Shown here: positions 4,315 through 34,306 of the stretch, one piece after another
Layout: the number at the start of each line of letters is the position of its first letter
Position numbering within the stretch: the first letter of the stretch is position 1
Assembly: GCA_030830865.1 (NCBI GenBank)
Contig: JAURME010000068.1
Span: 1 to 34,472, forward strand
Direction: 5' to 3'
Source of the DNA: Candidatus Nanopelagicales bacterium
GTDB lineage: Bacteria > Actinomycetota > Actinomycetes > S36-B12
DNA length: 34,472 nt
Position numbers and translations under genes: made by a program
The notes under the pieces: generated by a model
What the model saw: only the letters and a program-made list of their open reading frames with translations
The model's database searches: none
What the model was told of the DNA's origin: nothing

Positions 4315-4421
4315 GGATCCGCGCTTGCCCCTGGTGGGGCCTGGTCTGCTCCCGGAGCACCCCACCGCGTCTGGAGGGTTGCCGACCAGCGAGCCGGGAC
4401 TTGTCGCTGGTACTCGTGACC
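4315..4421 (-). ncRNA. SAM-IV-type riboswitch upstream of metK
   Basis: Minus strand: GGUCACGAGUACCAGCGACAAGUCCCGGCUCGCUGGUCGGCAACCCUCCAGACGCGGUGGGGUGCUCCGGGAGCAGACCAGGCCCCACCAGGGGCAAGCGCGGAUCC; recalled SAM-IV landmarks: CCAGCG..CGCUGG stem, CGGCAACCCUCC, CGCGGUGGGGUGC, GACCAGG, GGCAAGCGCGG. Confidence 0.9.
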
Positions 4422-26467: not shown

Positions 26468-27265
26468 CTACGACGCGCGGACCCCGGTCGCGAGTTCCCG
26501 CGCGAGGTCGCACACGGCGACCACCGCGGCTGCGTGGTCCGGTGCGTGGAGGATGCGTTTGACGAACGCGGACCCCACGATCACGCCGTCCGCGTAGGAC
26601 GCCACCTCGGCCGCCTGGTCGCCGGTGGAGATGCCGATGCCGACGCCGATGGGGAGCCCCGTGATGGCCCGGCACCGTCGCACGAGCTCGGGAGCCGCCG
26701 AACTGACTGCAGTGCGGCCGCCGGTGACCCCCATGGTCGACGCCGCGTACAGAAAGCCGGATGACACGGATGCGACTCGGTCGATTCGGGCGTCCGTCGA
26801 CGAGGGAGCTGCGAGGAAGATCCGATCGAGCTCATGCCGCGTCGTCACGGTGATCCAGTCCGCTGCCTCCTCCGGGGTGAGGTCAGGGGTGATCACGCCC
26901 TGTCCGCCAGCCTCGGCCATGCGCAGCGCGAACCGCTCGAGCCCGTACTGCTCGATGGGATTCCAGTAGGACATGACGAGCGGGACGGCACCGGTGGTCG
27001 CCACCTGCGCCACGGTGTCGAGCACGACATCCGTCGTGGTGCCAGCGGCGAGGGCGGCGTTGACCGCTGCCTGGATGTCGGGGCCGTCCATCAGCGGATC
27101 CGAGTAGGGCAGACCAACCTCGACGATGTCGACACCACCCTCGACCATGGCGGCGATGAGCTCGACAGCCTGGTCCGGGGTCGGGAAACCTGCGGGGAGG
27201 TATCCGATCAGCGCGGCCCGACCTTCGTCACGGGCTGCGGCGAAGGCGTCGGCCAGAGTCCTCAT
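26468..27265 (-). CDS. trpA: Tryptophan synthase alpha subunit
   Basis: [12 protein letters not shown]...[23 protein letters not shown]...[29 protein letters not shown]. Confidence 0.98.
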
Positions 27266-28512
27266 GGACGCATGCCCGGGGCCCGGCCCTGATCATGGCC
27301 GTCGAGGTCTATCCCGAACCAGGCCGCCGCCGTCGCGACATCCTTGTCCCCTCGGCCCGACAGATTGACGACGATGACGGCGTCGGGGCCGAGCTCGCGA
27401 CCCAGTCGCATGGCACCGGCGAGCGCGTGCGCCGTCTCGATCGCCGGGATGATCCCCTCGGTTCGACACAGGGCTGCGAAGGCCGACATCGCCTCGGCGT
27501 CGTCGACGGGCTCGTAGATCGCGCGACCGGTGTCGTGCAGCCAGGAGTGCTCGGGTCCGACGCCCGGGTAGTCGAGCCCGGCCGAGATGGAATGCGACGG
27601 AAGGGTCTGACCCCACTCGTCCTGCATGACGTACGTGCGTGCCCCGTGCAGCACTCCCGGGCTCCCGGCCGCGAACCGAGAGGCGTGCCGTCCGGTGGCG
27701 ACGCCCTCCCCTCCGGCCTCGTAGCCGCGCAGTTGGACCTGCGGGTCGTCGATGAACGCGCTGAAGAGTCCAATGGCGTTGGACCCGCCCCCGACGCAGG
27801 CGACAGCGGCATCGGGCAGCCGGCCCTCAGCCTCGAGGATCTGTGCCCGTGCCTCGCGCCCGATCACCTCGTGGAAGTGCCGGACCATTCGGGGGAACGG
27901 GGCAGGCCCGGTGACGGTGCCGAGAACATAGTGCGTGCGATCCACCGTGGTCACCCAGTCGCGCATGGCCTCGTTGATGGCGTCCTTCAGCGTGCGACTC
28001 CCGGCCGTGACGGGCACCACCTCCGCTCCGAGCAGGCGCATCCGGGCGACATTGAGTGCCTGGCGCCGGGTGTCCTCCTCGCCCATGTAGACGGTGCATT
28101 CCAAGCCCATCAGAGCAGCAGCGGTCGCCGTGGCCACGCCGTGCTGACCCGCACCGGTCTCGGCGATGACACGCTCCTTGCCCATGCGCTTGGTGAGGAG
28201 CGCCTGGCCGAGGACGTTGTTGATCTTGTGCGATCCGGTGTGGTTGAGGTCCTCGCGCTTGAGGTAGACCCGGGCTCCCCCGCATTCCGCAGAGAAGCGA
28301 CGCGCAGGCGTGAGCGGACTCGGTCGCCCGGTGTAGTGCACCTCAAGGGCGGCCAGTTCCGCACCAAAGTCGGGATCGGCCAGCGCGGTGGTGAAGGCGG
28401 CATCCAGCTCGTCGAGTGCCGCGGTGAGCGCCTCCGGCACGAATCGACCGCCGTACGGACCGAAGTGCCAGGGGTCGGTCGCCGCGGTCATGCTCTCTGC
28501 GATGTCGGTCAC
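27262..28512 (-). CDS. trpB: Tryptophan synthase beta subunit
   Basis: [13 protein letters not shown]...[24 protein letters not shown]...[12 protein letters not shown]...[12 protein letters not shown]. Confidence 0.98.
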
Positions 28513-28521
28513 CGGGCCCCC

Positions 28522-29331
28522 TCAGCCTCGTCCGTGGCGCGTCGCCGGATGTGCCCCCGCCGTGACGAGGTCGTGCACCGCGGCGCGGGGGTCACGGCCG
28601 GTCACCAGGCTCTCCCCGACCAGGACGGCGTCGGCACCGGCCTCGGCATAGACGATGAGGTCATGGGCGTCGCGCACACCGGATTCGGCGATCTTGACCA
28701 CAGAGGGAGGGATCGCGGGGACCACGCGGGCGAAGGTGCCGGTGTCGACCTCGAGGGTCTTGAGGTTGCGCGCGTTGACGCCGATGACGGTCGCACCGGC
28801 GGCGACAGCCCGCGCCGCCTCCTGCTCGTCATGCACCTCCACGAGCGGCGTGAGTCCAAGGCTCCTGGTCCGCTCGATGAGGCTGACGAGCGCCTCCTGC
28901 TCCAGCGCGGCGACGATCAGCAGGATGACGTCGGCTCCATAGGCCTTGGCCTCCCAGAGTTGGTAGCTGCTGACGATGAAGTCCTTGCGCAGCACGGGGA
29001 TGTCGACGGCGGCGCGAACGGCTGCGAGGTCGGCCAGCGAGCCGCCGAAGCGGCGCTGCTCGGTCAGCACGCTGATGCAGTGGGCCCCGCCCGCCTCGTA
29101 CTCCATCGCGAGGGCGGCGGGATCGGGGATGTCGGCGAGAGCGCCCTTGCTGGGACTCGAGCGCTTCACCTCGGCGATGACGCACACATCCTCGCCCGCG
29201 AGGACGGCCTCGACGTCGCGTGCCGGCGGCACACTGTGGGCGCGTTCCTTGAGTTCCTCGAGGGAGACCGCAGCCATCCGCTCGGCCAGATCGGCGCGCA
29301 CGCCGTCGAGGATGTCGTCCAACACGGTCAC
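28522..29331 (-). CDS. trpC: Indole-3-glycerol phosphate synthase
   Basis: [22 protein letters not shown]...[22 protein letters not shown]...[12 protein letters not shown]...ESGV. Start placed at GTG 29331 (MTVLDDIL); the track start is 29340. Confidence 0.96.
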
Positions 29332-29338
29332 AACGACC

Positions 29339-29344
29339 ACAGTA
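29339..29344 (-). promoter_or_regulatory. Candidate -10 element (TACTGT) for leaderless trpC
   Basis: TACTGT-N7-GTG; same geometry as at def and pyk. Confidence 0.45.
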
Positions 29345-29359
29345 GTGACGGCGGCCGGA

Positions 29360-29881
29360 CTACCCGATGCCGGATCCCAGGTAGGGAACGAAGTTCCGGA
29401 CCACGCCGAACACCACCATGGCGATCAGCCCGATCACGAGGATCGCCGTCCTCCGGCGGGTCTGTCGGGCCGTCACGGCCGCGGCGTGCCCCGTCCACGA
29501 TCGGCGCAGCCAGCCCAGCCACAGCAGCAGCGCGAGCGGGACGAGCACCACCAGCGCGATGTTGTGGTCCAGTGCGCCGGCGGGATTGCCGGTGATGAGG
29601 TCGTGGGTTCCGCGCATGATGCCGCAGCCGGGACAGTCCAGGCCGAACAGGGCACGGGTCGGGCACAGCGGGTAGTGGCCGGGCTCGTTGGGGTCGACGA
29701 CCGCGAGATAGGCCAGGCCGGCGGCCACGGCCCCCGTTGCCACCGCCGGCGCAACCATCCGGCGCAGCCGTGGTCGCGAGTCCCGGATCTCGGGCTGCAC
29801 GATGCGGTCGCCAGCATCACCTCCGAGTCCGGACGGCCCGGCAGCCGGCGAGCCGGTGTCGCGCCCGGCATCCACTGTCAC
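29360..29881 (-). CDS. DUF2752 family membrane protein
   Basis: [38 protein letters not shown] with predicted TM helices. A TAGAGT lies 6 nt upstream of the GTG start. Confidence 0.88.
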
Positions 29882-29890
29882 AGCAGGACT

Positions 29891-31291
29891 CTACGACGCG
29901 GCCGCGGGCAGGCGCACCGTGAATCGGGCACCTCCCTCGGGCGCCTGTCCGACCTCGGCCCTACCGCCGAGGCCTCTGGCCAACCGGCCCACAAGCGCCA
30001 GCCCGAGGCCAGTGCCCACCGGTCGGACCCCCCGGTAGCGCTCGTGGAGGGCACCGGGCTCGAAGGCCACGGCGCGGTCGTCGTCCGTCAGACCCGGACC
30101 GGAGTCACGCACCTCGACCACGGCCACGTCACCCTCAGATCGGATGGCGAGCACCATGACCGACTCCGGGGGGGACACCCGCAACGCATTCTCCGCGAGG
30201 TTGTCGATGATCTGGCGCACGCGCATCGGATCGGTCCGGACGATGAGCGGGGCCGCCGGAAGCTCCAGAACCGCGCTGAGGCCCTCGCGCTCCGCGCGGT
30301 CGCGCCACACGTCACCGGCGTCCGCGCCGAGCTCGGTGAGGTCGACCTCCACCGGCTCGACATGGAAGTCCACGGCGCCCAGCCGCGCCAGGTCGAGCAG
30401 GTCCGTCACGAGTCGATCGAGTCGTGCCGCCTCGAGTGCCACGGTCGTTCCCGTGCGCTCGACATCGTCGCCGGTGATGATGCCGTCGGCCAGGGCCTCC
30501 GCATATCCCTTGACCGCCGTCAGAGGCGTGCGAAGCTCGTGGGAGACGGACAGCAGGAATTCCCGCTGACGCCCCTCGGATGTCAGGAGGGCGGTGTTCA
30601 GTCGGTTGAGGCTGTCAGCGATGTCGGCGATCTCCACCGGGCCCTCCGGCACCAGCGTGACCTCTCGTGAGCCGGTGGCCATCTCGTTCGCGGCATCCCG
30701 CGCCGCCCGCAGCGGACGGATGAGCCGCCGCGCTGCCACGTAGCCGATCGGCATCGCGATGAGCAGCCCGACCACGAGACCGATGGCCAGGCGGCGCAGA
30801 GCGTCGATCGCCTGCACGCCGACAACGGTCAGGGGCTGTTCCAGGATGACGGCACCGCCGGCCACGAGGGGCCGCGCCTCGATGAAGATGCGGCCCTCCC
30901 GGGTCTCCCCGTCGGCCGAGACGGAGCGTCCTTCCATCACGGCTGCCATCACCGCATCCGGAACCCCTGGCGGGGAGCCGGCGCCGGGCGCGACCAGATA
31001 GCCGGTGATCTGCTTCGTCTGGAGAGCCGCGATGAGCGGACGGGGCAGGATCTCCTCGCTGTGTCGCCCCGAGTCGCCGCGGTCGAGTGCCGTCTTGGTG
31101 ACATCGGCCAGCCGGACGAGGTCGCTTCGCGTCTGCTGCTCGGCAGCACTGCGCACGAGCGGGTAGGCGGCCAGACCGGCGATGACAGCGGCGATGGCTG
31201 CGATCGAGGAGACGAGAAGGACGGTCCTGGTGACCAGGCTCATGCGTCCGCCCGGCACGTGCTGGACGCCAGGAGGCGAATCGACGGTCAC
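29891..31291 (-). CDS. Two-component sensor histidine kinase
   Basis: Two TM helices, HAMP-like region, H-box FLLSVSHELRTPLTAVKGYAEAL, N-box QIIDNLAENALRVSP, G-boxes DSGPGL/GTGLGLALV. GTGA overlap with the regulator. Confidence 0.95.
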   Translation of the reverse strand: MTVDSPPGVQHVPGGRMSLVTRTVLLVSSIAAIAAVIAGLAAYPLVRSAAEQQTRSDLVRLADVTKTALDRGDSGRHSEEILPRPLIAALQTKQITGYLVAPGAGSPPGVPDAVMAAVMEGRSVSADGETREGRIFIEARPLVAGGAVILEQPLTVVGVQAIDALRRLAIGLVVGLLIAMPIGYVAARRLIRPLRAARDAANEMATGSREVTLVPEGPVEIADIADSLNRLNTALLTSEGRQREFLLSVSHELRTPLTAVKGYAEALADGIITGDDVERTGTTVALEAARLDRLVTDLLDLARLGAVDFHVEPVEVDLTELGADAGDVWRDRAEREGLSAVLELPAAPLIVRTDPMRVRQIIDNLAENALRVSPPESVMVLAIRSEGDVAVVEVRDSGPGLTDDDRAVAFEPGALHERYRGVRPVGTGLGLALVGRLARGLGGRAEVGQAPEGGARFTVRLPAAAS

Positions 31292-31986
31292 GACGCGCCC
31301 GGCGCCTCGACCGAGTAGCCGACTCCGCGCACGGTGCGGATCGGGCTCGCGTCTCCCAGCTTGCCGCGCACCTGCGCGACGTGGACGTCGACGGTCCGCG
31401 TGCCCACCACAGCGGCATAGCCCCAGACCTCGGACAGCAGGTGGTCACGCGTGTAGACGCGGCCCGGATGCTGCATGAGGTGCGCGAGCAGGTCGAACTC
31501 CGTCGCCGTGAGCATGACCGGTTCACCATCGACCGTGACTCGTCGGGTGACGAGGTCGACCCGAACCGGACCGAGAACGAGCGGTGCCTCATCGGGAGCG
31601 ATGAGCGACGCTCGACGCACGACTGACTTCACACGAGCGACGACCTCGCGGGGGCTGAACGGCTTGGTGATGTAGTCGTCGGCACCGAGTTCGAGACCGA
31701 GCACGCGGTCCACCTCGTCGTCCCGAGCGGTGCAGAACAGGATCGGCACCCAGTTGCCCTCGGCACGCAGCTGGCGACACACCTCGGTCCCGTCGAGGAT
31801 CGGCAGGCCCACGTCCAGGACGATGGCGGCCGGATGCATGCTCCGTGCGGCAGCCAGCGCCGACTGGCCGTCCTCGGCGACATGGACCCCGAAGCCCTCT
31901 CGACTGAGGTAGAGGCGGAGCAGGTCGGAGATCGCCCGCTCGTCCTCGACGACGAGGACGAGTCCACGAGAGGTGTCAGCGCTCAC
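31288..31986 (-). CDS. OmpR/PhoB-family response regulator
   Basis: LVLVVEDERAISDLLRLYL, IVLDVGLPILDG phosphoacceptor, DYITKPFSPREVVARVK; C-terminal winged helix LTATEFDLLAHLMQHPGRVYTRDHLLSEVWG...VDVHVAQVRGKLG...IRTVRGVGY. Confidence 0.96.
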   Translation of the reverse strand: MSADTSRGLVLVVEDERAISDLLRLYLSREGFGVHVAEDGQSALAAARSMHPAAIVLDVGLPILDGTEVCRQLRAEGNWVPILFCTARDDEVDRVLGLELGADDYITKPFSPREVVARVKSVVRRASLIAPDEAPLVLGPVRVDLVTRRVTVDGEPVMLTATEFDLLAHLMQHPGRVYTRDHLLSEVWGYAAVVGTRTVDVHVAQVRGKLGDASPIRTVRGVGYSVEAPGAS

Positions 31987-32037
31987 GGGTCAAGGGTGTC
32001 AGATGACGATGCCGGTCGCGGGCCTCGTGGTACGCGA

Positions 32038-32067
32038 GACGTCAGTGCGACGTCAGGATCACGTAAG
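32038..32067 (-). repeat. Three direct repeats at 11-bp spacing; candidate response-regulator binding site
   Basis: Minus strand CTTACGTG-ATC-CTGACGTC-GCA-CTGACGTC; the last two units identical, the first 6/8. Confidence 0.65.
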
Positions 32068-32295
32068 TCAGTCGGCCTTCTTGCCGTAACCCATCGCGGC
32101 GAGCGCCTTGCCGGCGATGCCACCGACGACCACCAGCCCCGCGGACACCCAGAACAGCGGCCAGTTGCCGAACATCACCGCGAGCGTTCCCAGGAGGAAG
32201 GCGATGGAGATGATGACCACCGCGGTCCACGCGGCCGGTGTGGACCCGTGGTTGTCGTGGTGTGCCTGCGTCTGCGTCGAGGACTCCTGCGTCAT
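32068..32295 (-). CDS. Small HGxxPAAW-motif membrane protein
   Basis: HGSTPAAWTAVVIISIAFLLGTLAVMFGNWPLFWVSAGLVVVGGIAGKALAAMGYGKK; start trimmed to ATG 32295 (75 aa). Confidence 0.9.
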   Translation of the reverse strand: MTQESSTQTQAHHDNHGSTPAAWTAVVIISIAFLLGTLAVMFGNWPLFWVSAGLVVVGGIAGKALAAMGYGKKAD

Positions 32296-32303
32296 GGCGT
32301 CAT

Positions 32304-32753
32304 TCAACCAGATGGTTCTGCGGCGGGGCCGTCCGTCGGGCCGTCCGTCGGATCGTGCCCCTGGTCCAGCGCGTCCCACGCCGCACGGCGGGAGGCCGAG
32401 GCCTCCGGTCCGGGCGTGCGGTCATATCGTCCGCCCATCGCGGGCCACTGACGCCCCTGGACAGCGGACCACAGGGCAGCAACCACGATGAGCAGCCCGC
32501 CCGCCAGCGCTGCCAGTCCCGGGCCGGACGATCCGCCGACCAGGTCCACGATCCCCCCACCGACCGCGATGAGGCCGCCGGCAAGGAGCAGCACCGAAGC
32601 GATGACTCGGCCCCAGCCGCGGGTGGCGACCACGCCCAGGATCACGGCGAGCGTCAGCCACGGCAGGCCATCGACCAGGATGACCAGGACGAGGCCCATG
32701 ACGAGCAGGGCGAGTGCCAGCACGTACGCCCGAGTCGGGCTCAACCGGCTCAC
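32304..32753 (-). CDS. Trp biosynthesis-associated membrane protein (TIGR02234-like)
   Basis: GTG 32753 overlaps the trpE stop (GTGA); [32 protein letters not shown]...GWGRVIASVLLLAGG; located immediately after trpE as in other actinobacteria. Confidence 0.85.
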   Translation of the reverse strand: MSRLSPTRAYVLALALLVMGLVLVILVDGLPWLTLAVILGVVATRGWGRVIASVLLLAGGLIAVGGGIVDLVGGSSGPGLAALAGGLLIVVAALWSAVQGRQWPAMGGRYDRTPGPEASASRRAAWDALDQGHDPTDGPTDGPAAEPSG

Positions 32754-34306
32754 GTCGCGGTGAGCGTCTGCGCAGCCGCCACTGCCCGCAGGACGGCCGC
32801 GGCTTTGTTGGCGCACTCGTCCGCCTCGGACTGCGGGACGGAGTCGGCGACGATTCCCGCACCCGCCTGGACGTGCGCGATGCCGTCCTTCACCAGGGCC
32901 GTTCGAATGGCGATCGCGGCATCGAGGTTGCCCGCGAAGTCGAAGTAGCCGACACAACCGCCGTAGAGCCCTCGCCGCAGCGGCTCCAGTTCGTCGATGA
33001 TTGCCATCGCCCGGGGCTTGGGAGCACCGGACAGCGTGCCAGCCGGGAAGGTGGCGGCGAGGACGTCGTAGGCCGCCGACCCCTCCGCGAGCTCTCCGGT
33101 GACCGTCGACACAAGGTGCATGACGTGCGAGTAGCGCTCGACGCTCATGAACTCCACGACGGCCACGGATCCCGGACGGCATACGCGGCCGAGGTCGTTC
33201 CGGGCCAGGTCGACGAGCATCACGTGCTCGGCCCGCTCCTTGATGTCAGTGCTGAGCTCCTCGGCGAGGGCGACGTCCTCCTCCGGGGTCGCGCCCCGAC
33301 GGCGCGTGCCGGCGATCGGGTGCAGGACGCAGTGGTCGGCCTGCACGGTGACGAGAGCTTCCGGCGAGGATCCGACGATGTCGAAGGCGACCTCGTCGCT
33401 GAGCTGGACCGCACTCGCGTGCTCACCGTCGGTCTGCGGCATCCGGATGAGGTACATATATGGGCTGGGGTTGGTGGCACGGAGCACGCGATAGACATCG
33501 AGGGCAGATGCGGCGCACGGAACCGAGTAGCGCTGGGACACCACGATCTGGAAGGCATCCCCGGCCCGGATGTACTCCTTGGCAGTCTCAACCTGCTCGA
33601 GGTAGTCGGCATGCGGCGTGGCGGACTCCACGGTGACCTGCGCTGCGCGGTCGTAGGTGGCGACTCCGAGGGCCATCGGCTCCGCGAGCTGGGCCGCCAT
33701 GCGATCCAGCCGGCCAACCGCGTCGCGCCATGCCTCGTCGACTCGTTCATCCGTCGCGTCGTAGTTGATGGCGTTTGCGATGAGGAGCACCGAGCCGTCG
33801 GCGTGGTCCAGGACCGCGAGATCGGTCGCCAGCAGGAAACCCATGTCCGGGACGCCCAGGGTGTCGGGATTGTCGTCCGGCACGCGCTCCCAGGCACGCA
33901 CGGCGTCATAGGTCAGGTAGCCGACCAGTCCTCCGGTCAACGGTGGGAGGTCGGGCATGGCGGGTGTGCGCAGCATGGCGACGCTGTCGCGCAGGACATC
34001 CATCGCCCGGCCTTGCGTCGGAAGACCGACGGGAGCATGTCCGATCCATTGGGCGTGGCCGTCGCTTTCGGTCAGCAGCGCAGCGCACCTCACGCCGACG
34101 AAGGAGTATCGCGACCACGTGCGCCCCTGCTCGGCGGACTCCAGCAGGAACGTTCCCGCACGGTCCCCACAGAGCACCTCGAACAGTCCCACCGCGGTGA
34201 GCCCATCGGCGAGGAGCCGGCGCACGACGGGGATCACCCGGCGGTCGCGGGCGAGCTCCCGGAACGTGTCGAGGTCCGGAGCCACAGCCCCTGTGAAGTC
34301 GGTCAT
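32750..34306 (-). CDS. trpE: Anthranilate synthase component I
   Basis: [19 protein letters not shown] (LLES feedback motif); [67 protein letters not shown]. Confidence 0.97.

Follow-up and report, generated by a model that had tools for sequence, protein, structure and literature searches.

Three short tandem repeats stand directly ahead of a response regulator gene in Candidatus Nanopelagicales bacterium (GCA_030830865.1, contig JAURME010000068.1; the whole stretch of DNA analysed, 34,472 nt, is referred to as the window). The question raised by this locus is whether the two-component system next to the repeats uses them as its operator and which other genes it might control. Our analysis makes it likely that it does: the phosphorylated regulator would bind the array and activate its own promoter together with a small regulon that includes rbpA.

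A repeat array and its setting in a trp cluster

On the minus strand, from 32067 to 32038, the array reads CTTACGTG-ATC-CTGACGTC-GCA-CTGACGTC. A first-pass annotation of this DNA had described three tandem repeats with an exact 11-bp period at this place, and its sequence, strand, coordinates and spacing were all correct. Unit 1 (CTTACGTG, 32060..32067), unit 2 (CTGACGTC, 32049..32056) and unit 3 (CTGACGTC, 32038..32045) lie at about -81, -70 and -59 from a predicted leaderless start, and a degenerate fourth unit, CGTAC (32030..32034, minus strand), follows in register at -48. Some members of the genus keep unit 3 in the form CTGAC. Units 1 and 2 together (CTTACGTGATCCTGAC) form the most conserved pair of the array and are the window's top match to a matrix trained on 13 sites from regulator promoters only, the window's own site being one of the 13. 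The array starts directly 3' of the TGA (32068-32070) of the preceding DUF6704 gene and ends 51 bp before the regulator GTG (31986), inside a gap of 81 bp between stop and start codon, which agrees with its earlier placement right after the preceding stop and upstream of the two-component system.

The 30-bp array pattern occurs a single time in the genome according to a pattern search, and a genome-wide scan with the exact motif proposed in the first-pass annotation likewise gave one match only. The repeat in the window by itself is without statistical significance and could be due to chance: period-11 triples of equal quality were found in 14% of dinucleotide-preserving shuffles of the window alone, and triples at other periods are common in shuffled windows.

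The regulator (31288..31986, minus strand, GTG start) is of OmpR/PhoB type and passes the cut-offs for PF00072 (receiver) and PF00486 (winged-helix Trans_reg_C). Its gene overlaps by 4 bp with that of a membrane histidine kinase (29891..31291; HAMP, HisKA, HATPase_c), which is followed after 9 bp by a gene for a DUF2752 membrane protein (29360..29881), possibly served by the same promoter, and further downstream by trpC (IGPS, 28522..29340), all on the minus strand. The upstream neighbour on this strand (32068..32295) encodes a small HGxxPAAW/DUF6704 membrane protein, and its stop abuts the array. From 27262 to 34306 the window shows a two-component pair embedded in a trp cluster (trpE ... regulator, kinase, DUF2752, trpC, trpB). 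The regulator-kinase pair is kept in Micromonospora and in all ten genomes of the order that were examined, and in these ten, which belong to several families, it is located between trpE(-DUF6704) and (DUF2752-)trpC-trpB. In the window the genes from regulator to trpB share a strand and are separated by no more than about 20 bp, and the search for terminator-like sites was negative, so the putatively autoregulated promoter may also supply DUF2752-trpC-trpB. The conserved seat in the trp cluster raises the question whether an internal promoter drives part of tryptophan synthesis.

Against curated models the regulator scored 214 bits for MtrA (cut-off 300) and 226 bits for PhoB (cut-off 296), and the true MtrA of this genome is encoded elsewhere (380 bits). 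The searches reported no exact two-unit CTKAC array close to the other genes of OmpR type in the window's genome, and we found no description of this two-component system in the literature searched. As a side observation, two records titled Bifidobacterium breve (L053 and L088) appear to carry a wrong organism name; L053 encodes a regulator 78% identical to that of the window, also with a DUF6704 neighbour.

Conservation and promoter layout upstream of orthologous regulators

Upstream regions of regulator orthologs were collected from 59 relatives plus genomes of the class. They have a common layout while the sequence drifts, as in CTTACCGGATC-CTGACGTACTC-CTGAC, TTTACCAAACT-CTGATCCAGAA-TTGAC and CTTGACACATT-CTTAACAAAGT-CTTGGC. 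Among the 31 regions with a real intergenic gap, 19 contain [CT][TG][TG]AC pairs at spacing 11, where 0.36 were expected and the maximum in 200 shuffles was 3; this count is somewhat favourable to the unit, which was defined after inspection of the ortholog regions, and the shuffle statistics overstate independence because orthologs share descent. It is this repetition in orthologous regions that lends the array its significance, and independent checks on the unit come from the rbpA and Micromonospora sites described below. In the same 31 regions other spacings were close to expectation, except 22 (twice 11) and 9 with six regions each, the excess at 9 being derived from CTGAC and TTGAC at the -10 element.

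Judged from this comparison, what is conserved is CTKAC with a period of 11, not the 8-mer CTGACGTC. The core across orthologs is CTKAC-n6-CTKAC, with CTKACnnGATCCTKAC as the wider consensus of the first pair, and the unit opens with C or T rather than G across orders. The palindrome GACGTC is a peculiarity of the window's genome; orthologs keep CTKAC without it. Arrays are present upstream of orthologous regulators in the genus, the family, other families of the order and Micromonospora, and are kept even where the neighbouring genes differ. No recognisable array was seen in the upstream regions inspected of several orthologs from Actinomycetes that do not belong to the order. The array is also missing from most orthologs in which DUF6704 and the regulator gene are tightly joined, and autoregulation through the array is therefore not universal. 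The first-pass annotation had made its reading depend on conservation upstream of orthologous regulators, and such conservation was found from the genus to Micromonospora. The conserved 11-bp repeats also argue for the direct-repeat class of OmpR/PhoB-type regulators to which the array had been assigned, and their place ahead of orthologous regulators is consistent with the autoregulation it had predicted.

A predicted extended -10 element, TGA-CACCCT (31993..32001, minus strand), is located 6 nt before the GTG and would give a leaderless transcript. The pattern TGN-NANNNT-N6/7 followed by an in-frame ATG or GTG, which places NANNNT 6-7 nt ahead of the start codon as used to recognise leaderless promoters, is carried by 33 of 61 orthologs, where mononucleotide shuffles give an expectation of 0.35. 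Mapped transcription starts of mycobacteria have ANNNT at -13 to -6, and roughly one transcript in four there is leaderless (PMC6448022). Given that the -10 spacing here is as in mycobacteria, transcription of the regulator gene is predicted to start at the start codon itself. Counted from this predicted start, which is implied by the conserved extended -10, the units are positioned by genus at -83..-81, -72..-70, -61..-59 and -50..-48, nearly always in one register, and whole arrays at about -81/-70/-59 or whole turns nearer (-60/-49), so that the face of the DNA is kept. Array and promoter tend to occur together (27 orthologs with both, 21 with neither, 13 with one only; Fisher p = 1e-5). 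Where the regulator gene directly adjoins DUF6704, neither is present as a rule. A sigma-70-like -35/-10 pair was looked for in the array-promoter region and not found. A phased layout upstream of -35 suits an activator contacting RNA polymerase, and from it we infer the sign of control. The phosphorylated regulator would bind the CTKAC units, 11 bp apart, head-to-tail as a tandem dimer or trimer that occupies a single face of the DNA, and this site ahead of its own predicted leaderless promoter with extended -10 would result in positive autoregulation.

rbpA and other candidate targets

A genus-wide scan for three units, in which many matches were coding or restricted to a single genome and were rejected, revealed sites upstream of a gene identified by Pfam as rbpA (PF13397). 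Sites of the form YTTAC-n6-CTTAC, often YTTACCTGATCCTTAC, precede rbpA in 12 of 14 genus genomes (all except L209 and L210). With the matrix built on regulator promoters only, rbpA upstream regions reached at least 12 bits in 11 of the 14 genus genomes vs 2 of 239 unselected chunks (p = 2e-8), and the pattern YTTACCNGATCCTKAC with one mismatch allowed had 26 matches in the genus and 1 for the reversed control. Most of the 14 genomes have a GGGAAT box upstream of rbpA. The distance from array start to this box is exactly 44 bp in six genomes and 105-107 bp in three, an offset of about six turns. In the window's genome the putative rbpA promoter reads GGAAT-N18-GTC (spacing determined by eye in this genome), one base off GTT. 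The rbpA arrays of the genus would lie at about -80 from the rbpA start, close to the distance at the regulator promoter. No convincing array was seen in rbpA upstream regions outside the genus, to which the sites are confined; high matrix scores upstream of rbpA in L219 and L226 were set aside for their unrelated positions or strand. Separately, two RbpA paralogs (G000:C171 and G000:C151, 36% identical) are encoded in the window's genome and in many related genomes.

These sites suggest that rbpA, which encodes an RNA polymerase-binding protein and has a SigR-like promoter, belongs to the regulon in this genus. Direct control of rbpA by the two-component system seated in the trp operon of an actinobacterial order, by which an envelope signal would tune the housekeeping RNA polymerase, together with coupling of that signal to trpCB transcription through the autoregulated promoter, is a tentative proposal that we hold at somewhat less than even confidence. 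If true, the rbpA link would put a general RNA polymerase factor under the influence of membrane signalling.

Within 3 kb of the regulator-kinase pair, Micromonospora sp. RHAY321 and M. alfalfae MED01 showed no trp gene. Since the Micromonospora pair keeps its own array outside the trp cluster, the motif travels with the two-component system and not with the trp genes. A second array with three units, CTTACCTGACC-CGAACATCGGC-CTGAC, is located in Micromonospora after the kinase gene and ahead of a lipoprotein gene; its first unit varies as in CTTACC(T/G)GACC-CGAACATCGGC-CTGAC, and the complete genome G135 has the same three-unit array between kinase and lipoprotein gene. The predicted site form for the regulator in Micromonospora is CTTACCTGACCCGAAC.

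With the regulator's own sites removed, a broad-consensus site was found in 7 of 33 class genomes with an ortholog and 5 of 164 without (197 genomes; p = 9e-4, a value weakened by genome relatedness and by a consensus drawn partly from the counted sites). In G002 and G010 the site precedes a gene for a secreted helical protein, which is Spy/CpxP-like only below threshold (PF13801, E 0.13), and distant homologs of this protein in G007 and G011 have CTTACCCCGCT-CTAAC and CTTACTCAGCC-TTAAC. The regulon would probably also include a few genes for secreted proteins or lipoproteins. A site before the lipoprotein gene on G000:C162 was dropped from the core regulon, as it is not kept in orthologs, and matches to CCTACCGGATCCTGAC were discarded because they lie inside coding frames, mostly of one acyltransferase-like kind. 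One genome only shows five CTGAC-like units with 11-bp period directly after a stop codon and upstream of a membrane protein gene (L142 1501-1549; G004:C134:2203-2251). The motif offered earlier for finding the regulon was too specific in its exact form, while the core CTKACnnGATCCTKAC does find further promoters, above all that of rbpA, and with its 11-bp period it provides a candidate binding motif backed by comparative tests, along with a short target list.

Alternative readings and comparison with known systems

The array might be a genuine operator for a different regulator of OmpR type, MtrA (or GlnR) for instance, and this system would then be under the control of that protein. Sites of the MtrA/GlnR type are similar GTnAC-n5/6-GTnAC repeats, and the window's genome does encode a true MtrA. 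The MtrA repeats described from Streptomyces, GTnAcC-n5-GTnAcn, are one base from CTKAC (PMC13189361). We nevertheless regard this reading as improbable: the array accompanies the regulator-kinase pair where its gene neighbours change, and a second one is present there; its first base remains C or T across orders; GTWAC repeats occur at other places in the same genomes; and the broad-consensus site is commoner in genomes with an ortholog of the regulator, whereas MtrA is expected nearly everywhere. Another possibility is that the regulator binds the array but represses its own promoter. Position alone leaves the sign of control unfixed, and negative autoregulation is common, but repression appears unlikely to us in view of arrays that lie mostly upstream of -35 (about -83 to -38), spaced by whole turns and clear of the -10 element and start, in the placement of a class I activator, within a region where no sigma-70-like -35/-10 pair was found.

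Two further explanations would deprive the repeats of a regulator altogether. They could act at the RNA level, for instance as a terminator hairpin behind the DUF6704 gene in which GACGTC pairs with itself, and a 6-bp GACGTC stem can indeed form. Yet folding was no better than that of shuffles (z -0.19), no terminator-like site and no RNA family match were found at the array, and orthologs lose the palindrome while keeping CTKAC, which leaves this reading with next to no probability. A chance repeat without function would agree with the frequency of equal triples in shuffled windows but not with units, spacing and register conserved across genera or with the reuse of the site at rbpA, and is very improbable as well. 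As a separate observation on RNA elements, the window contains a SAM-IV riboswitch aptamer at 4316-4421 on the minus strand (101 bits).

We favour binding of the array by the adjacent regulator, and its putative operator can be compared with several described ones. A possible relationship to CrsR of Actinosynnema was looked into; the paper on CrsR found no motif. The array resembles the MtrA direct repeats of Streptomyces in its period, in the class of the regulator and in the AC that closes the half-site, and differs in the first base (C/T vs G) and in a regulator score of 214 bits vs the 300-bit cut-off. MtrA-like GTTAC-n6-GTTAC repeats, possibly true MtrA sites, were also noted at L250-L259, with GTTACCGAAGTGTTAC common to G001 and G006. 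PhoP of Streptomyces and PolR of Microlunatus recognise 11-nt units, GtTCAcc / GTTCACnnnnnGTTCaC (PMC6754071), which are likewise direct repeats ahead of promoters, whereas their half-site differs and their targets are phosphate-related. At rbpA, the literature searched held no report of a two-component operator upstream of the gene, and its control by SigR through GGAAT-N18-19-GTT is established in Streptomyces (PMC9205884); rbpA has a similar GGGAAT promoter here, but with an additional putative two-component operator upstream. PhoP of Mycobacterium tuberculosis binds as a tandem dimer to 7-bp direct repeats with a 4-bp spacer (PMC4832192), and the system described here shares with it the 11-bp period, the direct repeats, the OmpR/PhoB-type regulator and the possibility of two to four units, while the CTKAC unit, an only distantly related regulator and the genomic context set it apart. 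The operator type is in this respect the known part, and the half-site sequence, the link to rbpA and the seat in the trp cluster would be the new ones.
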